Positions 21,005 to 34,488 are shown, numbered from the stretch's first letter. The stretch is DNA of 64,000 bases from Candidatus Zixiibacteriota bacterium (GCA_023138975.1 JAGLON010000033.1:1-64000); one strand, 5' to 3'. Numbers and translations are program-made. Notes: generated from the sequence alone by a model not told the origin.

Positions 21005-21192
21005 TTGCCTCCGATAAGATTCAGTTTTTCCAGTATTTCGGCCCTTGATGTGAGAGAGAAGTTTCTCTGATGTGTAAAGATTATACGAGTGAAATTATTA
21101 TTGCAAGAGCAAAATTTCGTTTGTAAATACTACATTCTGTATTAACTTATCTATGTCGTATGCACTACATGCCCAGCGCTCAGGAGGAAAAA

Positions 21193-23565
21193 ATGAAATC
21201 ATCTCTTTTTAAGCTATTGAAAGTTACTATCATAGTTATGCTGCTAATAACGTTTTGCAGCACTTCCGGGTTCTGTCAGGCATTAATTGCCGATCATACC
21301 TCAAGTGATGAGTTTTCCAACATTCCGGATTCTATCATCACTTTTATTCGCGGTAATTACTATTACTACTACGCCCATACCTCCCACGGAAGCCAAATAA
21401 TGACCGGTTTGGATATGGTATATGCCGAGGATAATTTATATCAGGAGCCGTATTTTTATGAGCGCAGTGATGATTTAGGGCATGTGGGCGATACCTCATG
21501 GGTTCCTTATATGCGGACCTATCTGGCCTCGAATCCGGATTGCAATATGGTGATGTTTTCGTGGTGCGGGGGCTGTTCGGATAATTCCGAGGCAGGTATG
21601 AATATATACCTAAATAAAATGAATGAGCTTGAAAGTGACTATCCATCGCATACTTTTATTTATATGACGGGGCATCTGGATGGGGGTGGAATCACAGGCA
21701 ATCTTTATCTCCGTAATAATCAAATCAGAGATTACTGCAATGCCAACGATAAAATCCTGTTTGATTTCGCTGATATCGAAAGTTATGATCCGGACGGGAC
21801 ATATTATCCTGATGAAAATGATGCCTGTGGCTGGTGTGAAACTTGGTGTGCTTCTCATAGTTGCCCGAGTTGCGCCGGTTGTGCCCATTCCCATTGTTTC
21901 AACTGCTATCGAAAAGGGAAGGCATGGTGGTGGATGATGGCCAAGATATCAGGCTGGCAGGCGACTCTTGATACGATTCCTGATATTGTTTCCTTCTCAC
22001 CGGAGCAGAATGAGATGAATGTTGGGTTATCATCAGATATTTCAGTACAATTTGATATCCCTATGGATGAAACGACCTTGACAAGTTCATCAATTAACCT
22101 CTTTTCCAAATATAAAGGCAAATTACCGGGAACATTCTCATACGATGCGCCTACCAACACGGTGCTATTCAATCCCACTACTGATTTTGTTGTCGGTGAT
22201 GTGATTCAGGTGGTAATAACCGATGCTGTTCTATCTGCGGCGGGAGTGCCGTTAACTAACGGGTTTGGATGGAGTTTTACGTGCGAGGTTTCCGCCGGAA
22301 ATGCTCAATTTGGAGACACTGCATCATTTGCTATACCCACTTACCCGCGTCAAGTGAAGGCAGCGGATTTAAATGGGGACAATAATGTTGATATTGTGGT
22401 AGTAAACAGCGATGGTTTTCATGTGATGCTTGGCACCGGAACCGGAGCTCTACAGCCGTTTGTTACTTACACGACCCCATCATATTCCTATTCAATGACG
22501 TTAGCAGATGTCAACAATGACGGTTATCCTGAAGTAGCGATTGCCGGGGAGTCTTCGGAGTACTATGGGTATACTTCAATATATATAAATAATGGTGACG
22601 GTACGTTTGGTGATCCTATCTCTTATGATGGAGGCGGCGAAGGGGATATCACTTCTGCGGACTTAAATCTGGATGGATATTTAGATTTAATTGTAGTGCA
22701 ATCTTTTCTTTCCAGCAATATATATGTATTTCTCAATAACGGAAACGAGACTTTTACAACGGATACGATCTATACGGCTGAGCTTGGTTCCCAGAGTGTT
22801 GCCGCTGAAGATTTTAATGGAGACGGATATTTCGATATTGTGGTTGGCTGGAGTCAATCGAACACAGTTGAGGTTTTTTTGAGCACTGGCCCGGGGCGCC
22901 TTTCAGAAGGTGTCGAGTATCTTACCAGTTACGCAGTACAGTCACTTTATGCGGCAGACTTGGATAATGATGGTGATGTTGATATTGTAACGGGGGATGA
23001 AACCAGCGAATATATGGGGATTGCATCATATCTTTACAATAATGGTGATGGTACGTTTGGTAATTTAAGTGGAGCCTATGTGGAAGGTGGTGCAGTGGCG
23101 GGTATATACTGTACCGATTTGAATAACAACGGGTTTAATGATATCGCCTGCGTTGCCTGGGGAGAATATTTTAGATATATGCTAAATCAAGGTGATGGAT
23201 CGTTTGGCGCAGTTCAAACCGAAACGATTTTGGACAGAGTGCGTGATATGACCTGTGCCGATATGGACAACGACGGCGATATGGATATCATTTCCATGCA
23301 TGATGGTCCAATGCTTGTCACGGTTACTAAGAATGGAATGGTAATAAACCCTCCATATTGCGGCGATGCCAATAATGATGGCTCGCTTGATGTAGGTGAT
23401 GCTGTGTATCTCATCAATTATGCCTTCAAAGGTGGACCTGCACCGAATCCTGTGTGTCAGGGCGATGCGAATAATGATAGTGATGTCAATGTTGGTGATG
23501 CTATCTTTATTGTCAATTATGCATTTAAAGGAGGTCCATCTCCGGGCACTAACTGCTGTGATTAA
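21193..23565 (+). CDS. Secreted H-x-S-H-G family protein with Big_5-like Ig, seven FG-GAP/VCBS-like repeats and C-terminal dockerin pair (paralog P1)
   Basis: RBS AGGAGG before ATG at 21193, signal peptide, 'YAHTSHGSQ', 'SWCGG', 'CAHSHCFNCYRKGKAWWWMMAKISGW', seven 'D-N-D-G-x-x-D' blades, terminal dockerin 'CGDANNDGSLDVGDAVYLINYAFKGG'. Confidence 0.8.
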   Translation: MKSSLFKLLKVTIIVMLLITFCSTSGFCQALIADHTSSDEFSNIPDSIITFIRGNYYYYYAHTSHGSQIMTGLDMVYAEDNLYQEPYFYERSDDLGHVGDTSWVPYMRTYLASNPDCNMVMFSWCGGCSDNSEAGMNIYLNKMNELESDYPSHTFIYMTGHLDGGGITGNLYLRNNQIRDYCNANDKILFDFADIESYDPDGTYYPDENDACGWCETWCASHSCPSCAGCAHSHCFNCYRKGKAWWWMMAKISGWQATLDTIPDIVSFSPEQNEMNVGLSSDISVQFDIPMDETTLTSSSINLFSKYKGKLPGTFSYDAPTNTVLFNPTTDFVVGDVIQVVITDAVLSAAGVPLTNGFGWSFTCEVSAGNAQFGDTASFAIPTYPRQVKAADLNGDNNVDIVVVNSDGFHVMLGTGTGALQPFVTYTTPSYSYSMTLADVNNDGYPEVAIAGESSEYYGYTSIYINNGDGTFGDPISYDGGGEGDITSADLNLDGYLDLIVVQSFLSSNIYVFLNNGNETFTTDTIYTAELGSQSVAAEDFNGDGYFDIVVGWSQSNTVEVFLSTGPGRLSEGVEYLTSYAVQSLYAADLDNDGDVDIVTGDETSEYMGIASYLYNNGDGTFGNLSGAYVEGGAVAGIYCTDLNNNGFNDIACVAWGEYFRYMLNQGDGSFGAVQTETILDRVRDMTCADMDNDGDMDIISMHDGPMLVTVTKNGMVINPPYCGDANNDGSLDVGDAVYLINYAFKGGPAPNPVCQGDANNDSDVNVGDAIFIVNYAFKGGPSPGTNCCD

Positions 23566-23745: not shown

Positions 23746-24318
23746 ATGAAAAAAATATCAAAAAAATCACTGGCTGATTTAATTGAGAAGTGCAATAACG
23801 GGGATGAAGCTGCCTGGCATATTCTTATTGATTTTATCGCGCCATATGTTTTTGCCATTTGTTCCAAAAGTAGAATGACCCGGGATGAGAGCTTCGATAT
23901 TTTTGGCCAGGTTTCTCTACAGCTTATAAAATCGATCAAACGGCTAAAAGAACCGGGTAGTTTGTTGGCTTTTGTCGGGACGATTACTCGGCGAGAAATA
24001 TACGCCTTTTTCCAGAAAATCATGATGACAGATTCGATCGATGAGGAAATCGTCAATTCTGTACCTGACTTGTATAGTAAGTCGCCTGAAGATGATTTTG
24101 TTTTGCTGGAAAAGAGGGAAATGCTTATGGAAGCCATGCTTTCTTTGTCAGAAAGAGACTTTTTGTTGATTAAAATGCTTTATTTTGATCCCGGAGAGCC
24201 TTCGTATAAAGCAATCGCTAAAAAACTGAATATGCCGGTTTCATCTATTGGGCCGATTCGTGGAAAAATATTAGTCAGATTGTATAAGTACTTGAAAATA
24301 AAGAACAAAGGAAAATAG
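23746..24318 (+). CDS. Sigma-70 family (ECF-like) RNA polymerase sigma factor
   Basis: Region 2-like N-terminal half and region 4 'LSERDFLLIKMLYFDPGEPSYKAIAKKLNMPVSSIGPIRGKILVRLYK'. Confidence 0.85.
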   Translation: MKKISKKSLADLIEKCNNGDEAAWHILIDFIAPYVFAICSKSRMTRDESFDIFGQVSLQLIKSIKRLKEPGSLLAFVGTITRREIYAFFQKIMMTDSIDEEIVNSVPDLYSKSPEDDFVLLEKREMLMEAMLSLSERDFLLIKMLYFDPGEPSYKAIAKKLNMPVSSIGPIRGKILVRLYKYLKIKNKGK

Positions 24319-24364
24319 AGGTATTTTCTGCCGAGTGTTTTAATACCATTATGTAGGTGCATTT

Positions 24365-24955
24365 ATGAACTCCGAAGGTATAGATTTTAAAAAAATTGCC
24401 GCTTATTTGCAGGGTAAGTTAAAAGCAAATGAGAAAAAGGCGACTGAGAAGGAAATTGCTCAGAATCCGGTCCTTAAGACACTCATTGAAATGTCTCTTG
24501 ACTGGAAATCTGAGTTAGCCGATAAAAACTGGCAACAAGCCGGAAAGTCGGTTCATGCTCTATTGTCTAAGCAATTGGATGAAATAAAAGCGGCTGAAAA
24601 GAATACTCAATGGATGAGGGGAATCACAACCTTCGACTCCAAATTACTGCCGATTCCTGAAGGAGTCCGCCCGGCAACTGTCGATACGCGTCGTATTAAA
24701 ATACAGCTCGGTAATTCGCAATTAGATATATCCCTATATCCTGTGTCCACTGGCTCGTATGAACTAATAGGACAATTAATTGATTGGAATTCTGTTGATA
24801 TACACACGATTGTCTTAAAAGGTTCAAATCAATCGCTTTCGGCTGATACCAATCAATTTCAATTATTTCAATTCCCGAGAGTATCGGCGGGGCATTATTC
24901 TATGAAAGTTAAGCTGGGGCGGAAAATTATCGCCGTCATTGATCTTGATTTATGA
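24365..24955 (+). CDS. Putative soluble anti-sigma-like protein with C-terminal beta-sandwich-like region
   Basis: Directly after the sigma gene. N-terminus 'IAAYLQGKLKANEKKATEKEIAQNPVLKTLIE' resembles an anti-sigma helical domain without Zn ligands. No TM. Stop overlaps the next start (ATGA). Confidence 0.55.
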   Translation: MNSEGIDFKKIAAYLQGKLKANEKKATEKEIAQNPVLKTLIEMSLDWKSELADKNWQQAGKSVHALLSKQLDEIKAAEKNTQWMRGITTFDSKLLPIPEGVRPATVDTRRIKIQLGNSQLDISLYPVSTGSYELIGQLIDWNSVDIHTIVLKGSNQSLSADTNQFQLFQFPRVSAGHYSMKVKLGRKIIAVIDLDL

Positions 24956-27714
24956 TCTGTCTGGAAGATATTCGAGAGCTAAAAACGAAAAAAGCGGTTG
25001 AATCATATATTCAACAGCATTTTAGCGGTGACACTGATGCTTTTGCCGTAGAAGTAAGCCGTACGCTCAATAGTCTCCTTCATGGTAATTTGAAGAAAGC
25101 TGAAGCCTTCTATCGATCCTGTGTCAAATTATTTTCACTATTGCCAGAACATACACCGGTACTATTCATTACAATGGAAGCCCGTCTTGCTCATTGGTCA
25201 GGCAATCACAAGAAAGCGATAACAAAGTATAATTCGGCTATAAGGATGTATCAAAAACGCCGTGATTTTGCAGCCATTTCTAAAACCCGCCAGGGATTGA
25301 TGGATGTATTTATGTATCTTGGTGCCTATGATAAGGCTCTTGATACCGGGAAAAAAGCTCTTTCCTATTTTCAGCGAACAGGTAAACAGGTTAGTGCTGC
25401 GCAAGTTATGACGAATATCGGTAATGTTTACCATCGAATGGATAAAAATAAGCTATCAATGCGCTACTATGATAAGGCTCGAGAAATCTTTGCGGCCAAA
25501 GGCGGAGTTCCTCTGGCAATCGTAGATTACAATCGGGCCAATGTGTTAGCTAATATGAATCAGCTCGATGAGGCAGAGAAGCTTTATCAGTTTGCAGCTG
25601 ATGTTTATCGCCAGAATGGTCTGGAATTGATCGCTTGCAAGTCAGAATACTCGCTTGCCTATCTGCATTTTCTTTCCGGCAATTATTCCGATGCGTTGGA
25701 AATATTCGACCGGGTGTATGATACTTTTGATAAACTGGGGGATACCAAGGCCAAGGCCGTAACCGATCTTGATTTGGCGGAAATAAATATAGAGTTGAAC
25801 CAATTCGGCACGGCCATGATGCAGGGAGAAAGAGCCTGTACGGTCTTCGAGAACCTCGGGCATACCTATGAGCAGGCGAAGTCCTCATTTTTTGCTGCCG
25901 AAGCTTCTCGGAAATTAGGCGATTTATCTCATTCCCGGAAGTATCTAAGTAAATCTGAGAAACTCTTTCAGAAAGAGGGGAATCGTTTCTGGAAAGGAAT
26001 GATTGCTCTCGAAAAATCAAGGCTATTGACAGCGATGGGTGAATCTTCCAAGGCTGTATCGGCCGGCCGGTTGGCCCGTAAATCATTTATTGGTAACCAC
26101 GATGAGAGAAGAAGAATTGATGCGGATATCTCCCTTATTCACGCTTCTTATAATTCGGGAAAAATAAAACAGGCAATAGAATTGGCTTCTAAAGTTGAAC
26201 GGGGCAGATTGACCCGGGGGCAAAAGCATGATGTTCAATTTCTATTGGGGCAGTGTTATCTCCGCCGGAAATTACCAAAAGAGGCACTGAAGCATTTTAA
26301 AACAGCTATTGATGCGGCCGAGAAAATGCTTAGTAATCTTTCCAGCGATGAAATTAGATTTTTCTTTGCGTTTGACAAGTATCCAACCTACTTATCTGCG
26401 GTTGAATGTTTATTGGCAATGGGGAAAAGCAAAGAGGCGTTTTTGCAAAACTCTAATGCTATGTCAATATTGAACCAACGCATTGTTCCGGATACAAAGC
26501 TTCGACGGGAAGTGCCTGCGGAATTGCTAAACCGCCGTAAGGAATTGCGCTCAGCTTTAAAAAGGCTTGAAAAAAAACCAGAAACAGCCGGACAGCGAAT
26601 ACTTAGTACCGGTTCTGAGTATAGAAAAATTGAGTATGGCCTCTGGGCAAATGAGCAAAAAATTCGATCAGTTTTTACAAGCGGTAAAAAAGAGCGAGTA
26701 GCAATAAATCGCACGTCAATGGAAATTCAGAAAAATCTCTGTAATGATGAGCAAATAGTTAACTTGATTTGTCTTGACGGTCGAGTGGGCGCTTTCGTGT
26801 CAACTAACCGGAATACCAGATTCGTTAAGTGTCCGTTGGATCAGCAGGAGTTTAGATCTACTCTTCATAAACTACAGTATTTAATGGAGCGTGAGGTTCT
26901 ATCCGGTGGGCGCAGACAAGACAGTTCAGGAATAATAAATTTCTACTTAGCTCAACTATATGAGTGGTTAATCAGCCCATTACATCTTTCCAAAGAACAA
27001 AAACGAGTAATCATGCTGGTTGACGGAGAGTTTGCTCAAGTACCATACTTAGCATTGTTAAACTCGAACAAAAAACGATTAAAAGATATTTTCCATATCA
27101 GAGTGATTGCAAACCCGCGTGATATTTTAGGCAAACGGCGAAACCTTAAATTTGCAAAAAAAAATAACTCAATCTTTGCTGTCTCCGATATTGGATTACC
27201 GATGATCTTGAGGGAAGGTAAGGAGATAGCATATGAGTATCCGCGAGCCAAATTATATTCAGGAAAACAGGCGAATAGTGTTCATCTTAAGCAGGTTCTA
27301 AACCGCTCCGATGGCTTCATTCATATAGCGTCTCACGCTTCGCGTGCTTCAGAAAATCCTCTTTTTTCACGTATTTTACTTCACGATGGGCCGTTTTTCC
27401 CGTTTGACCTGTTCGAAAACGGAATAAAAGCGGAATTAGTGAGTTTATCAGGTTGCCAAACTGCCGCTCCTGGTATATATTATGGTAACTCTTTTAGTCT
27501 GGCAAAAGCCTTTTATCAGGCCGGTTCGAGATTTGTCTTAGCGTCGTTATGGTCGGTTTCCGATAAAATGAGTATGCTGTTTATGACGCAGTTTTATAAA
27601 TCTCTAAAATCTGTCGATGATATCGGGTTGGCATATTATACCGCAGTAAATCAGACTGAAAAGATTAATAGTAATCCAGCGCTTTGGAGTCCATTTATTC
27701 TGATTGGGATGTAA
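24952..27714 (+). CDS. TPR-CHAT domain protein (putative caspase-like protease)
   Basis: Multiple TPRs ('AAQVMTNIGNVYHRMDKNKLSMRYYDKAREIFAAKG'). C-terminal CHAT with His 'GFIHIASHA' and Cys 'LVSLSGCQTAAP', ending 'ALWSPFILIGM'. Confidence 0.9.
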   Translation: MICLEDIRELKTKKAVESYIQQHFSGDTDAFAVEVSRTLNSLLHGNLKKAEAFYRSCVKLFSLLPEHTPVLFITMEARLAHWSGNHKKAITKYNSAIRMYQKRRDFAAISKTRQGLMDVFMYLGAYDKALDTGKKALSYFQRTGKQVSAAQVMTNIGNVYHRMDKNKLSMRYYDKAREIFAAKGGVPLAIVDYNRANVLANMNQLDEAEKLYQFAADVYRQNGLELIACKSEYSLAYLHFLSGNYSDALEIFDRVYDTFDKLGDTKAKAVTDLDLAEINIELNQFGTAMMQGERACTVFENLGHTYEQAKSSFFAAEASRKLGDLSHSRKYLSKSEKLFQKEGNRFWKGMIALEKSRLLTAMGESSKAVSAGRLARKSFIGNHDERRRIDADISLIHASYNSGKIKQAIELASKVERGRLTRGQKHDVQFLLGQCYLRRKLPKEALKHFKTAIDAAEKMLSNLSSDEIRFFFAFDKYPTYLSAVECLLAMGKSKEAFLQNSNAMSILNQRIVPDTKLRREVPAELLNRRKELRSALKRLEKKPETAGQRILSTGSEYRKIEYGLWANEQKIRSVFTSGKKERVAINRTSMEIQKNLCNDEQIVNLICLDGRVGAFVSTNRNTRFVKCPLDQQEFRSTLHKLQYLMEREVLSGGRRQDSSGIINFYLAQLYEWLISPLHLSKEQKRVIMLVDGEFAQVPYLALLNSNKKRLKDIFHIRVIANPRDILGKRRNLKFAKKNNSIFAVSDIGLPMILREGKEIAYEYPRAKLYSGKQANSVHLKQVLNRSDGFIHIASHASRASENPLFSRILLHDGPFFPFDLFENGIKAELVSLSGCQTAAPGIYYGNSFSLAKAFYQAGSRFVLASLWSVSDKMSMLFMTQFYKSLKSVDDIGLAYYTAVNQTEKINSNPALWSPFILIGM

Positions 27715-27735
27715 TTTTTCCCAAAGGATAGTCTT

Positions 27736-29166
27736 ATGAACGCACACAAAAACTCTTTCATTGTTCTATCATCATTGATGTGTTTGTTTTTATTTGCATC
27801 GATTTCAGCTCAACCCGTCGAAATTGATAATCAAATAGTCGTAGTTACCAAGAAAAACTGCAATCCTGAGAATATTTGGGGGACCGGTAAGGCTACTGTT
27901 CGAGATAGCATAAAAGGCTGTAATACTTTTTTGATTGATATCAATTCTGATGAATCCGGGGTAAGAGCCTATCTTGACACGTTGGCAAAGAACCCGAGTG
28001 TTGACTATTTAGAGCCAAATTATCAGGTAGAACTTCCAGAAAATTTCCAGATGAGTATTTCGTTTCCGGACGAAGGATGTCCGCCTTTGGTTAAGGGTAC
28101 CAGCCCTCCGGATTTCTTTGGCTTACCGGCTATATATGATCTTGGAACCGAGATGGCTCACGAGTTAACCACTGGTGAAGGTATTATTGTCGCGATTATT
28201 GATAACGGCATAGACCAGAATCACCCGCTTTTTCAACAATCTATCATGCTTCCCGGTAAAGACTTCATCGATATGGATGACGATCCCTCCGATGAGGGAG
28301 GTGATGTATATGGGCATGGGACCTTTGTAACGGGACTTGTATTACTTAACGCCCCCGATTGTGGAATTGTGACCGTTCGGGCATTTAACGGCAATGGTAT
28401 CGGAAGCTCGTTTTCAATTGCTCGAGCCATCCGTTGGGCCGCCAATCATGATGCAGATGTCATTAATATGAGTTTCGGTATGGAGACTGATAGCAAGCTT
28501 GTAAAAAATGCGATAAAGTTTGCAAATAATAAGGAAGTTGCATTAGTCGCCGCAAGTGGTAACGAAGGTTTGACGACACGTATATTCCCGGCAGCATATA
28601 ATACTGTAATTGCAGTGTCGGCTATTGATTCGCTGGAACATCTTGCCGATTTTTCGAATTATGGTGAATACATAGACGTGTGCGCCCCCGGGGTCAATTT
28701 ATACAGTAGCTTAGCCGGTGAATACAATTGGGGTACCTGGAGCGGTACTTCCTTTGCCGCACCGCTTGTTAGTGCGGCCTGTGCATTGACTCTATCTCTG
28801 AATGAAGAGGTGACACCCAATAGAATCGAACGGCATGTCGGACTGACTGCCCGAAGGGTTTTAAGCTGGGGAGAGATAGTTCCTCCCGATTCACAATATG
28901 GCAATGGGTGCATTGATATTTTTGCTGCAGTTAGCCAAATTAATGAACCTGATATTATTCTGTGCGGTGATGCTGATGGCAATGGTGTTGTGAATATGGG
29001 GGATGTTCAATATATTGTCCGTTATGTATTTAAAAGCGGATCGCAGCCTTCTTCAATGAGCGCCGCCGACGTTAATTGTGATTTCCATGTAAATGAAGCG
29101 GATGCGACATTTTTATTGAATTTCTTGTTAAAAGGAGGTCCGCAGCCCTGTTGCTGGGCCAGATAA
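27736..29166 (+). CDS. Secreted S8 subtilisin-like peptidase with C-terminal dockerin
   Basis: Signal peptide, I9-like propeptide, triad motifs 'IVAIIDNGID', 'HGTFVTGL', 'GTSFAAPLVSA', dockerin 'CGDADGNGVVNMGDVQYIVRYVF'. Confidence 0.92.
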   Translation: MNAHKNSFIVLSSLMCLFLFASISAQPVEIDNQIVVVTKKNCNPENIWGTGKATVRDSIKGCNTFLIDINSDESGVRAYLDTLAKNPSVDYLEPNYQVELPENFQMSISFPDEGCPPLVKGTSPPDFFGLPAIYDLGTEMAHELTTGEGIIVAIIDNGIDQNHPLFQQSIMLPGKDFIDMDDDPSDEGGDVYGHGTFVTGLVLLNAPDCGIVTVRAFNGNGIGSSFSIARAIRWAANHDADVINMSFGMETDSKLVKNAIKFANNKEVALVAASGNEGLTTRIFPAAYNTVIAVSAIDSLEHLADFSNYGEYIDVCAPGVNLYSSLAGEYNWGTWSGTSFAAPLVSAACALTLSLNEEVTPNRIERHVGLTARRVLSWGEIVPPDSQYGNGCIDIFAAVSQINEPDIILCGDADGNGVVNMGDVQYIVRYVFKSGSQPSSMSAADVNCDFHVNEADATFLLNFLLKGGPQPCCWAR

Positions 29167-29239: not shown

Positions 29240-29314
29240 GTATTTAGATTATACCATTTATTGGAGTTGCCACATATCTTGTGGCGTTCTTCCGACTCTT
29301 GAAGCGCAGTGCTG

Positions 29315-29345
29315 GGGGTGGGACGGCAATCCCGCCCCTGTTTTT
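29315..29345 (+). terminator. Second strong hairpin plus T-tract sharing a 20-mer with 34546..34565
   Basis: GGGGTGGGA-CGGCAA-TCCCGCCCC stem (9 bp with one T-G), then TGTTTTT. Confidence 0.6.
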
Positions 29346-29569: not shown

Positions 29570-32500
29570 ATGAAAAAGATAGGATCTTATGCATTTCTAT
29601 TTATCTTTGTATTATCTTCTTTTGCTTTCGCGGTCGATCAGCTTGATGTTGATCCGGCCAAATTTATTAAAGGACAAACATTTATAGGGCACGTCCCGGA
29701 TCGGTTTATCGTCGTTCTTAAGGATGATGTTGTGGTCGATCACGGAAAAGATATTTCTACCGACCTGGCTTTATCAGACCGATCGGATTTTTCCGCTTTG
29801 GCTCAACAGTTTCAGGTGATAAAACTTCAGCCGCAATTTCCGGGAACAGACCGGGGAGCTTTTGCGTCATCTGATGAAGCGCAGAATTTATCCCGGCATT
29901 ACAAAATTACTATTTCGGAAGGAACGCTCGAAGAGGCCATGGAGGCCTATGCGGGACTACCTGAAGTTGACCATGTCGAACCGATTAGTGTTCACATGCT
30001 AAAGGCGACCCCGAATGATGGGTATTATGACTCTTATCAGTGGCACTATTACGATACCCACGGAATTGATGCTGATCTTGCCTGGGATTCACAAACCGGT
30101 GATGCGACCGTTGTCGTCGGTGTCCTGGACACAGGCGTAAAGTATGATCACGGGGATCTGGGGGGTAGTAACCCTCCGGGACCGAATGATGCCAGTACAA
30201 ACGGAAATATCTGGGTAAACAGTGCTGAGACTCCCGGTAATGGAATTGATGACGACGGCAATGGATATACCGATGATATCATTGGATGGGATTTTGTAGA
30301 TCGCACCGATTGGTATAGTTATGATTGCCTTGATCCTGATTGTGGAACAGCAGATAATGATCCATTTGACCACAATGGTCATGGAACACATGTCGCCGGC
30401 ACAATTGCCGCGATTACCAATAACGGCTATGCTGTGGCCGGTATCGCTGGTGGATATGGTGATGGTACATTCGCTGGCACTAATGCCACAGGTGTCAAAA
30501 TCGTCCCATGCCGAATCGGATATACGCTTTTATACCAGGGACAGGATGTTGGGGTCGTAATTATGGACTATGTCGCCGAGGCGATGTATTACATGGGCAA
30601 CCTCAAGCAGTCCGGTGTCAATGTTGCCGCGATTAACTGTTCCTTTGGTTCGTCCAACGATGGCGGCCTTGGTGCCGCGGCCGATTTCCTGATTGCGCAG
30701 GATGTTATGGTCATTGTTGCGGCCGGTAACAGTAACTCGAGTAGTGCAGATTATCTCGGTTCACGAACTGACTGTATGGATGTCGGCGCTACCGACCAGA
30801 GTGGCGATGTGGCCAGTTTCTCCAATTATGGTACTTGGGTAGATATTGCGGCACCGGGCGTTAGCATTATGAGCACGACGACCGATCCTGCTGACCCGAC
30901 TGGAGATTATGTAGCTCAGTTTGATGGAACATCAATGTCATGCCCGCACGTTGTTGGTGTCGCGGCTATGCTTGAATCAAAAGATGCCTCACTCAGTGCT
31001 GCCGATAAATGGAATCTGATGGTTGATAATACTACTCCCTATACCGGCAGTAAATATGTCGGAACAGGTATTGTCAATGTTAAGGATGCTCTGGATGCGA
31101 CCGGAACAAACGAAAATCCGCCGGTAGCTGCCTTTGTTGGTTCACCGACTTCAGGTGAATATCCGCTGACAGTTAATTTCACTGATCAGTCGACCAATAC
31201 TCCGACTTCATGGAGTTGGAACTTTGGGGATGGAGTAGGGACCTCTACGGCTCAGAATCCAAACTATACTTATACTTCTGCGGGAACCTACACGGTCTCC
31301 CTGACGGCAACTAATGCCTATGGGTCTGATGTTGAAACCAAGACTAACTATATCACTGTGACGTCTCCGCCTCCGCCGGTAGCGGCCTTTGTCGGTTCAC
31401 CGACATCGGGTGATTATCCTCTGACGGTTGATTTTACCGATCAGTCGACCAATACACCGACTTCATGGAGTTGGAACTTTGGTGATGGAGTAGGGACTTC
31501 AACAGCTCAAAATCCGTCCTATACTTATACTGCGGCGGGAACCTACACGGTATCTCTGACAGCAACCAATGCCTATGGTTCTGATGTTGAGACCAAGACA
31601 GATTATATCACCGTAACGGCTCCGGCTCCGCCAGTCGCCAATTTCAGCGGTTCACCGACTTCGGGCGAATACCCGCTGACGGTTAACTTTACTGATCTGT
31701 CGAGCGGTTCTCCAACGACTTGGAGTTGGGACTTTGGTGACGGAGTGGGAACATCAACAGCTCAAAATCCGTCATATGTTTATGATGCGGTAGGGACTTA
31801 TACCGTGACTCTGACTGTTTCAAATACGTTTGGATCAGATGCGGAGACCAAGTTAGATTATATTACTGTTACCGAACCCGGTGTTTCGACAGGTGCTAAT
31901 GCACTTTCAGATATTCCAGTAACAGGATCTGTAACTGGTAGCTATGCAAATACATACAGTAGTGATAACGTCTATGAAGTCATCACTGAAGTGGCCTATA
32001 CGGGGCACCCGCGTAAGACATATAGTTATCTTGAGCATAAGTGGGATTTCAATGTCCCGGGCGGGTCCGATGTGGTATTTTATGTTGAAGCATATCGCCC
32101 TACCAATAGTGACGGTGATAATTTCAGCTTCGCGTACTCGACAGATGGAGCAAATTATACAACTCTGATTACTGTCGCCAGCGCTACCGAGCAGACCTAC
32201 TCGGCTGCATTACCAGGTGGAACGAGTGGCACAGTATATATTCGTGTCCTTGATTCTGATCGAAATTGGGGTAACCTGTCAAATGATGCAATATATATCG
32301 ATGACATGTATATCGAATACAGTAGTTCACCTCAGCCGCCGGTTGCTAATTTTGCCGGTACACCGACTGCCGGATATGCTCCGCTAACAGTCAATTTCAC
32401 TGACCTGTCGACCAATGCTCCGGACTCATGGACCTGGGACTTTGGTGATGGTTCCGGTACATCTACGCTACAGAACCCGTCATATGTCTATGATGCTGTC

Positions 32501-33223
32501 GGCACCTACACAGTCAGTCTGACGGTGAGTAATGCGTATGGTTCTGACTCGGAAATTAAAACCGGATACATTACGGTTTCGGAGCAGGGTACAGCGACGA
32601 TGCATGTTGGAGCTATGACAGTTGGCCGGGCAAAGGCTGGACCTAATTATTTTGGTTCATGTACGGTTACTATTGAAGATGATAACAGTCTTCCTGTTTC
32701 CGGTGCAACGGTATATGTAACGGCTACAGGATCCACCGGGGGCAGTTACAATGGCGTCACAGGAACCGATGGAACTGTTACATTCCGGACCTCAACCGGA
32801 TTGAAAAAACCGATCGGTGAATGGTGTTTTGAAGTTACTGATGTCACTCATGCAACTAATTCATATGAGTCAGCATCAAACGTAGCGACCTACACCTGTG
32901 AAAGTGGTATTGTTTACGGTGAAAACGGTGAAGTTATCGCTGTTAATCCGAACTTGCCATCCGAGTTTTCTCTGTTGCAAAACCATCCGAATCCGTTTAA
33001 CCCGGTAACGACTATTGCATTTACATTACCGGAAGCAATGTATGTTAGACTTGATGTGTTCAATATTATGGGCCAGCGAGTTACTACACTGGTAGACGGA
33101 GTCAAGGAAGCAGGATATCATTCTGTTTCGTGGGGTGGCGGCAACGTAGCCAGTGGAGTTTATTTCTATAAAATTCAGGCTGGTGTGAATTCGGAAACAA
33201 GAAAAATGGTACTTATGAAATAA
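29570..33223 (+). CDS. Secreted S8 subtilisin-like peptidase with four PKD domains and C-terminal FlgD-like/T9SS-type sorting domain
   Basis: Triad motifs 'VVGVLDTGVKYDH', 'HGTHVAGTIAA', 'GTSMSCPHVVG'; four 'FGDG.GTST.QNP.Y.Y' PKDs; C-terminus 'LLQNHPNPFNPVTTIAFTLPEA...GVYFYKIQAG...RKMVLMK'. Confidence 0.95.
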   Translation: MKKIGSYAFLFIFVLSSFAFAVDQLDVDPAKFIKGQTFIGHVPDRFIVVLKDDVVVDHGKDISTDLALSDRSDFSALAQQFQVIKLQPQFPGTDRGAFASSDEAQNLSRHYKITISEGTLEEAMEAYAGLPEVDHVEPISVHMLKATPNDGYYDSYQWHYYDTHGIDADLAWDSQTGDATVVVGVLDTGVKYDHGDLGGSNPPGPNDASTNGNIWVNSAETPGNGIDDDGNGYTDDIIGWDFVDRTDWYSYDCLDPDCGTADNDPFDHNGHGTHVAGTIAAITNNGYAVAGIAGGYGDGTFAGTNATGVKIVPCRIGYTLLYQGQDVGVVIMDYVAEAMYYMGNLKQSGVNVAAINCSFGSSNDGGLGAAADFLIAQDVMVIVAAGNSNSSSADYLGSRTDCMDVGATDQSGDVASFSNYGTWVDIAAPGVSIMSTTTDPADPTGDYVAQFDGTSMSCPHVVGVAAMLESKDASLSAADKWNLMVDNTTPYTGSKYVGTGIVNVKDALDATGTNENPPVAAFVGSPTSGEYPLTVNFTDQSTNTPTSWSWNFGDGVGTSTAQNPNYTYTSAGTYTVSLTATNAYGSDVETKTNYITVTSPPPPVAAFVGSPTSGDYPLTVDFTDQSTNTPTSWSWNFGDGVGTSTAQNPSYTYTAAGTYTVSLTATNAYGSDVETKTDYITVTAPAPPVANFSGSPTSGEYPLTVNFTDLSSGSPTTWSWDFGDGVGTSTAQNPSYVYDAVGTYTVTLTVSNTFGSDAETKLDYITVTEPGVSTGANALSDIPVTGSVTGSYANTYSSDNVYEVITEVAYTGHPRKTYSYLEHKWDFNVPGGSDVVFYVEAYRPTNSDGDNFSFAYSTDGANYTTLITVASATEQTYSAALPGGTSGTVYIRVLDSDRNWGNLSNDAIYIDDMYIEYSSSPQPPVANFAGTPTAGYAPLTVNFTDLSTNAPDSWTWDFGDGSGTSTLQNPSYVYDAVGTYTVSLTVSNAYGSDSEIKTGYITVSEQGTATMHVGAMTVGRAKAGPNYFGSCTVTIEDDNSLPVSGATVYVTATGSTGGSYNGVTGTDGTVTFRTSTGLKKPIGEWCFEVTDVTHATNSYESASNVATYTCESGIVYGENGEVIAVNPNLPSEFSLLQNHPNPFNPVTTIAFTLPEAMYVRLDVFNIMGQRVTTLVDGVKEAGYHSVSWGGGNVASGVYFYKIQAGVNSETRKMVLMK
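31118..31873 (+). repeat. Three tandem PKD-encoding repeats, exact 255-bp period (starts 31118, 31373, 31628)
   Basis: PPVAAFVGSPTSGEYPLTVNFTDQSTNTPTSWSWNFGDGVGTSTAQNP repeated with few changes. A fourth, diverged copy lies at about 32336..32581. Confidence 0.85.
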
Positions 33224-33785: not shown

Positions 33786-33995
33786 ATGACGGATGTAAGA
33801 AACTCGTCGACATTTAGTCTTTTTGCCAAGCCGTCCTTCATTGAAGGGGTGGCAAGAGTCTTTGACTTTGGCGCGACCTTGCAAGTATACAATTATTCCA
33901 ATCGTCCTGATAGAAAAGCCTTGCGCAATGATTGGGAAGCTGTCGGGGATGCTTTAAGGGAGTCTATTAAAAAGTATGGGAAAGAAAAGCGGTAA
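33786..33995 (+). CDS. Small conserved-looking protein preceding the DUF2335 gene
   Basis: 69 aa, 'IEGVARVFDFGATLQVYNYSNRPDRKALRNDWEAVGDALRESIKKYG'. Overlaps the DUF2335 ORF by 20 nt. Confidence 0.65.
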   Translation: MTDVRNSSTFSLFAKPSFIEGVARVFDFGATLQVYNYSNRPDRKALRNDWEAVGDALRESIKKYGKEKR

Positions 33996-34488
33996 AAAAA
34001 GAACCCAGAAACACCCATTACAGAAAAATACCTATAATAACCAACAACCTCCCAACCAAAAGAATCAAGAGATATCAATTCTAAAAGAAGAATATAGCGG
34101 TATTCTTCCGCTTCCATCTCATTTACTTCAATATGAACAAGTAATTCCTGGTGCCGCCGATCGAATAATTTGCATGGCAGAAAATCAAATGAAACACCGG
34201 TTTGGCATGGAAGATAAGGTGATTAGTTCGGATACATGTAACGCTAAAAGAGGTGTGGTTTTTGCGTTTATTATTTGTGTCTTAGCCCTAACAATCGGTG
34301 GGTATTTAATCAGTATAGACAAAGCTATTTCAGGTGGCTTATTCGCTGGAACTATTGTTGTTACCCTTGTAGGGACTTTTATATATGGAACTAATCAGCG
34401 CCGCCAAGAGAGGGAGAGCCGTCAAGAAAGGGAGAATCATCAGGAGGGGGCCGGCCCTCAAGATGAAGATTCGCATGTGACAAAATAG
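33976..34488 (+). CDS. DUF2335 family membrane protein
   Basis: 'LPLPSHLLQYEQVIPGAADRIICMAENQMKHR' followed by two TM helices, DUF2335 layout. Confidence 0.75.
   Translation: MGKKSGKKRTQKHPLQKNTYNNQQPPNQKNQEISILKEEYSGILPLPSHLLQYEQVIPGAADRIICMAENQMKHRFGMEDKVISSDTCNAKRGVVFAFIICVLALTIGGYLISIDKAISGGLFAGTIVVTLVGTFIYGTNQRRQERESRQERENHQEGAGPQDEDSHVTK

Follow-up and report, generated by a model that had tools for sequence, protein, structure and literature searches.

Organization of the cassette and its genomic setting

The stretch of DNA analyzed here (the window) comprises 64,000 nucleotides from a Candidatus Zixiibacteriota bacterium (GCA_023138975.1; JAGLON010000033.1:1-64000), whose genome of 4.15 Mb in 108 contigs is 93.6% complete. 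ORF translation of the window placed four genes on one strand (+, as are the cassette features given below), at the positions reported in an earlier note made from the sequence alone. In order, they encode (i) an ECF-type sigma-70 family sigma factor of 190 residues with regions 2 and 4 (23746..24318); (ii) a probable cytosolic anti-sigma factor of 196 residues, here termed P196, proposed as substrate of the protease that follows (24365..24955); (iii) a predicted TPR-CHAT cysteine protease of 920 residues with a separase-like fold (24952..27714); and (iv) an exported S8 subtilase of 476 residues bearing a dockerin (27736..29166). The tetranucleotide ATGA at 24952-24955 supplies both the stop of P196 and the start of CHAT, an overlap pointed out previously and found again, as the same -4 arrangement, in 32 of the Zixibacteria loci in which these two genes adjoin. 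A terminator-like hairpin revealed by sequence scan 3' of the subtilase (29313..29340; 11 pairs, seven of them G-C, followed by a T-rich tail) is a consensus match only and marks a possible end of the transcription unit.

Genes for secreted proteins flank the cassette on both sides. Directly upstream, on the same strand, lies an ORF for a secreted FG-GAP / Big_5 / dockerin protein (21160-23565), and FG-GAP- or dockerin-similar proteins border some other cassettes as well (L054, L055). Downstream is a PKD-repeat subtilase of 1217 residues with a Por_Secre_tail-type C-terminal sorting domain (29570-33223), a candidate regulon or co-effector gene; PKD-subtilase-like genes also occur just 3' of the cassette in near-branch loci L037, L038, L040, L047 and L051. 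The PKD subtilase gene is separated from a PhzF-like gene by an ORF for a DUF2335 membrane protein (33976-34488; 52 bits).

The sigma factor was recognized by TIGR02937 (49.9 bits; cut-off 42.9), which matches all 39 of its aligned relatives (39/39); Pfam sigma models alone score under their cut-offs. The subtilase scores above cut-off with both PF00082 (162.4 bits) and Dockerin_1 (PF00404; 37.9 bits), and has the triad D156/H194/S339 and a hydrophobic N-terminus, which bears out its previous description as an exported S8 protease with intact triad and dockerin. Among subtilases of related cassettes the Asp and His are present in 74/74 each and the Ser in 69/69 where aligned, and a hydrophobic stretch close to the N-terminus is seen in 68 of the 74.

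A predicted, possibly latent TPR-CHAT protease

The CHAT domain of the third gene product is unambiguous (PF12770, 108.9 bits; cut-off 24). Its catalytic residues His795 (codon at 27334..27336) and Cys835 (27454..27456), earlier noted as kept, are found in 84/84 and 81/81 of the proteins aligned there, respectively, and the dyad never varies, including in proteins from other phyla. The structural model (pLDDT 83.7) has human separase as its best Foldseek match, with a TM score of 0.55 by query length. When the catalytic region was compared with solved structures, the closest were the Craspase TPR-CHATs (1.7e-12 and 3.9e-11) and DdvA (6e-11), followed by separases at values of at least 0.005. 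Two active-site loops, residues 797-820 and 837-845, are modelled with pLDDT < 50 despite their conserved sequence, which could reflect a latent enzyme, or just the shallow alignment of nine sequences used for the model. In the inactive state of Csx29, the active site is misplaced (PMC10028731).

Substrate preference cannot be carried over from separase by analogy. Craspase has K670 where separase has the Asp that reads P1-Arg (PMC9729208), and the corresponding position is M875 in the window and A, M, S or L in its relatives. Since the P1-Arg determinant of separase is not conserved, the cut site and specificity of CHAT cannot be predicted from it. The N-terminal region of helical repeats, modelled as a TPR superhelix (approximately residues 1-540; 24952..26571), is a likely sensor and/or substrate-binding segment. 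Within it, N155, N194 and E277 hardly vary from one phylum to another, suggestive of a conserved binding groove, and matches to the region include the peptide-binding proteins LGN and RapJ.

P196 belongs to a family with class I anti-sigma homology

P196 alone retrieved no Pfam or NCBIfam family over cut-off. It has neither a hydrophobic stretch nor an H-x3-C-x2-C motif, in agreement with the initial reading of a partner protein devoid of transmembrane segments and zinc ligands. Its assignment came from the wider family. Near-branch and far-branch P196 proteins are homologous (hhalign probability 96.7, E 4e-10), and most far-branch members contain H-x3-C-x2-C. Weak matches to the P196 profile cover its N-terminus alone; the five examined are zf-HC2 proteins of 82-94 residues (37-43.5 bits; cut-off 22.2) whose genes overlap those of ECF sigma factors. 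A P196 relative from another phylum itself scores over the zf-HC2 cut-off (25.6 bits). Searched against PDB, the wider P196 profile matched chain B of 3hug (9.5e-5), which we take to be RslA and which carries the entry label "conserved membrane protein", followed by RsiW (0.0032), the anti-sigma domain of DdvA (0.058) and ChrR (~0.09); the far-branch Zixibacteria profile alone retrieved no PDB match. At the level of the family, then, both homology to class I anti-sigma domains and adjacency to an ECF sigma gene were found.

The zinc motif is distributed by branch. It occurs in 25/33 proteins of the FDSW subtype and in 23/26 from other phyla but in 0/32 of the subtype to which the window belongs, from which we conclude that zinc ligands were lost in the window's branch. 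Among class I anti-sigma domains the motif is missing in ~44%, and zinc-free and soluble representatives are common (PMC7406223). Judged by these sequence relationships, P196 is very probably an anti-sigma factor; the label "anti-sigma-like" in the earlier note is now well supported by a family profile that finds both zf-HC2 anti-sigma factors and solved anti-sigma domains.

The AlphaFold model of P196 (pLDDT 82.5) comprises four N-terminal helices, a loop, and a beta-sandwich of eight strands beginning at residue 109. We thus delineate a putative anti-sigma domain (residues 1-80; 24365..24604), a flexible linker (residues 86-110; 24620..24694) and a C-terminal beta-sandwich (residues 109-196; 24689..24952). 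The sandwich is described here as CarboxypepD_reg-like on the basis of weak matches to CarboxypepD_reg, under cut-off, in distant P196 relatives only. Foldseek comparison of the P196 model with PDB gave nothing at E <= 0.001, the best partial matches being beta-sandwich domains.

Conservation of the cassette within and beyond Zixibacteria

An initial search with the CHAT protein took in 60 relatives, and 40 neighbourhoods were fetched. Nearly all 40 present the order sigma, P196, CHAT, subtilase, and this order is kept even at ~25% CHAT identity. So as to avoid selection by CHAT, a second search was performed with the P196 profile over 133 Zixibacteria genomes, yielding 73 strong loci with full-length P196 relatives. 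A sigma gene lies upstream of P196 in 71/71 testable loci, a TPR-CHAT gene directly downstream in 70/72, and a subtilase in the cassette in 60/61, counts that are not fully independent in that they include the loci used to build the profile and those fetched with CHAT. Approximately 30 loci added through the P196 search alone display the same pattern. The related genomes are mostly MAG-like, the named records being nearly all Candidatus Zixiibacteriota, and some ORF starts are uncertain.

The two Zixibacteria loci that depart from direct CHAT adjacency are L066, where ORF calling produced an overlap, and L048 (4188-9985), where CHAT is inverted and divergent from sigma, anti-sigma and subtilase genes that it still adjoins; as judged from the latter, linkage outlasts the loss of co-transcription. 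Other variants were observed. Cassettes at L146 (2967-6430) and L162 (3482-6019) have no subtilase; nearby genes on the 3' side encode instead small exported paralogs bearing glycine-rich segments. At L207 (374-7814), a single CHAT gene is flanked by two sigma / anti-sigma pairs, one on each strand, and its product may serve two switches. L040 contains two cassettes in tandem. The window's own genome harbors another complete cassette of all four genes on contig C35 (L036; 6360-12211), whose CHAT is 43% identical, so that the organism must keep two switches separate; three more loci, on contig C19 (L001, L002 and L003), carry different CHAT genes in frames of 926-1240 residues.

Outside Zixibacteria, the P196 profile matches four genomes. 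When the phylum-level groups to which three of these belong were searched, the cassette was recovered in 1/1, 4/5 and 18/47 genomes. Of 26 non-Zixibacteria P196 loci, those that were testable have a sigma gene upstream in 24/24 cases, a CHAT gene downstream in 23/25 and a subtilase in 15/18. The cassette is shared with at least four further phylum-level groups of bacteria. P196 had no match in a plasmid search, in which the CHAT matches were generic TPR-CHATs. Conserved linkage in related genomes had been set out beforehand as a check on the proposed switch, and the result is very strongly affirmative, with the pattern of the Zixibacteria counts (71/71, 70/72 and 60/61) recurring in other phyla. 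The arrangement of genes is far beyond chance, and the four genes almost certainly constitute one functional unit.

The conserved linker of P196

The most conserved part of P196 is neither of its folded domains. It is the linker, in which the motif FDS...GVR...RR occurs (in the window, FDSKLLPIPEGVRPATVDTRR). Conservation per column averages 2.50 bits over residues 86-110, in comparison with flanking values of 1.37 (anti-sigma domain) and 1.78 (sandwich). D91, S92 and R102 occur without exception in 35/35 P196 sequences and in a 19-member alignment extended to other phyla, and some even more remote members deviate. The P196 model is least confident at residues 101-105. Flexibility joined to invariance, in a segment that connects an inhibitory domain to a second domain, is as expected of a site for regulated docking or cleavage. 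Linker and beta-sandwich were seen only in proteins encoded next to CHAT, and no CHAT gene occurred within the fetched stretch around the five anti-sigma-only loci checked. This coupling of a flexible, conserved linker and sandwich to the presence of CHAT is the main reason for proposing P196 as the substrate of CHAT, and makes the linker the segment at which CHAT most plausibly docks or cuts. R102 was considered as the cut site by analogy with separase and dropped, since the P1-Arg determinant is not conserved and the P1' residue in the window is proline; a cut right after R102 would precede proline in the window's branch, which counts against it.

A proposed protease-gated switch and its alternatives

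From these features we infer sigma binding, cleavage, release, a signal, a regulon and a role for the subtilase, in the following scheme. The ECF sigma factor would be held inactive by P196, acting as a soluble class I anti-sigma factor with an additional linker and beta-sandwich. The TPR-CHAT protein would be a latent, separase-like cysteine protease, activated when its TPR superhelix receives a cytosolic signal, and would then cut P196 in or beside the FDS...GVR...RR linker. The cut would part the anti-sigma domain from the sandwich, weakening or destroying inhibition, perhaps with help from general proteases, and the freed sigma factor would redirect RNA polymerase. The exported subtilase from the same operon could be either the secreted effector through which the response acts or a contributor to its input. 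In our assessment it is moderately probable that CHAT, once activated by its signal, frees sigma through a cut in P196 within or close to the linker.

The step from cleavage to release has a precedent in Craspase, in which Csx29 cuts the sigma inhibitor Csx30 (PMC10028731, PMC9729208). There the N-terminal part of cut Csx30 still binds sigma (PMC9729208), and inhibition requires full-length Csx30 (PMC9729208, PMC10028731). Because that fragment keeps sigma binding, release by a single cut is uncertain even in that known system. As to what the switch controls, the subtilase is a member of the operon and so need not be a target of sigma. No bipartite ECF-type motif exceeded shuffled controls upstream of 69 sigma genes, where 10-of-12 matches to sigma-70-like sites numbered 14 versus 3-6 in shuffles; in a promoter scan of the window, sites were no more frequent than in shuffles. 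Lacking a shared ECF motif and showing some sigma-70-like excess, the upstream regions lend no support to autoregulation by sigma, and hint weakly at a standing supply of cassette parts instead.

Several alternatives were weighed against this scheme. Anti-sigma factors are able to release sigma through conformational change (PMC7406223), and a non-proteolytic switch can be envisioned in which binding of the linker and sandwich, by CHAT or by a ligand, pulls the anti-sigma factor off sigma, with cleavage minor or absent; the zinc motif kept in many relatives is in keeping with it, and in those relatives a redox or zinc input could be added, as in RslA, RsrA and ChrR. We consider such a switch unlikely, in that a protein that only binds would have no need of a His/Cys dyad that is invariant across phyla, and the zinc or redox variant is at odds with a window branch that has no zinc ligands at all. 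A role in defence or cell suicide, whereby an invader signal activates CHAT, the anti-sigma factor is one of several substrates, and the regulon or subtilase harms invader or cell, draws on the activity of CHAT proteases in Craspase and on the control of an antiphage island by DdvS (PMC12288465). PADLOC, however, returned matches to generic TPR, CHAT-fragment and subtilase models only, and the examined neighbours in the window encode secreted, FG-GAP and PKD proteins and no known defence genes, leaving this role quite improbable.

The near-constant presence of the subtilase in the operon, the invariant TPR Asn residues and the resemblance of the TPR region to LGN and RapJ would also accommodate peptide feedback, in which the TPR groove of CHAT senses subtilase-released peptides that have re-entered the cytosol; this is purely inferential, however, and the cassette has no importer gene, so we regard it as very unlikely. 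Least credence of all is given to proteolytic control operating without an anti-sigma factor, as proposed for the ECF54 neighbourhood (PMC8999054, section 3.3): every complete cassette seen has an anti-sigma gene, and the subtilase, being exported, should not meet sigma.

Relationship to known systems

The earlier note had conceived of the cassette as a CRISPR-independent version of the Craspase sigma arm, and the present results fit that conception. No gene of the RAMP family (PF03787) was detected in the window's genome (93.6% complete), whereas four control genomes gave matches; the absence of CRISPR or gRAMP genes remarked for the window is thereby extended genome-wide for the RAMP family, and we conclude that the system is not Craspase. 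The Csx29 model NF041237 scores 21.2 bits against a cut-off of 300, and the Craspase TPR-CHATs are nonetheless the closest solved catalytic regions. Among the PDB matches of the P196 family there was no Csx30 chain. The likeness to the type III-E CRISPR system Craspase (CASP) thus consists of a TPR-CHAT protein, a sigma inhibitor and an ECF sigma factor encoded in a single locus, with closest similarity in the catalytic regions; the differences are that the cassette has no gRAMP (Cas7-11), its inhibitor is much smaller than Csx30, and a secreted subtilase is added.

Other systems share individual parts. In Myxococcus xanthus DdvS/DdvA, an anti-sigma domain is likewise paired with a CHAT region, and both the anti-sigma domain of P196 and the CHAT region of the cassette have DdvA among their best PDB matches; as indicated by PDB titles, however, DdvA is a single transmembrane protein, whereas the cassette encodes separate proteins without membrane segments. 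Eukaryotic separase also combines helical repeats with a caspase-like protease fold, but the sequence match is weak (at least 0.005) and its P1-Arg determinant is not conserved in the cassette. RslA, RsrA, ChrR and RsiW have the same N-terminal anti-sigma domain as P196, with H-x3-C-x2-C in most P196 relatives outside the window's branch, which in contrast has no zinc ligands. To our knowledge, none of the four has an FDS linker plus beta-sandwich beside a CHAT protein.

A precedent in gene context is ECF54, whose sigma factors are reported with a carboxypeptidase, a subtilase and a CHAT protein in their neighbourhood (Casas-Pastor et al. 2021, as relayed in PMC8999054), and for which control by proteolysis without an anti-sigma factor has been proposed (PMC8999054). 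The likeness lies in this context (CHAT, subtilase and a CarboxypepD_reg-like protein corresponding to P196). It differs in that ECF54 is reported without an anti-sigma factor, while in the present cassette an anti-sigma domain forms part of the CarboxypepD_reg-like protein. Given the CarboxypepD_reg-like C-terminus of P196, the "carboxypeptidase" of ECF54 is probably a P196-type protein and the missing anti-sigma factor its N-terminal domain. No paper describing a stand-alone sigma / anti-sigma / TPR-CHAT cassette was found in the open literature, subscription papers falling mostly outside that coverage. The neighbourhood is thus partly on record through ECF54 (PMC8999054), and what is added here is a probable anti-sigma factor.

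We advance tentatively, as a real possibility rather than an expectation, that these cassettes represent a widespread, CRISPR-free family of cytosolic sensors whose separase-like TPR-CHAT protease fires an ECF sigma factor by cutting a soluble anti-sigma factor at a conserved linker, that the sigma arm of Craspase was probably recruited from this family, and that the subtilase provides an effector or a feedback input. If true, proteolysis of anti-sigma factors by a caspase-like protease would be a general route of bacterial signalling and no oddity of CRISPR, and could explain the origin of the sigma/Csx30/Csx29 arm of Craspase. It would further supply the anti-sigma factor reported missing from ECF54-type neighbourhoods, and would present a small, testable, protease-gated transcription switch.
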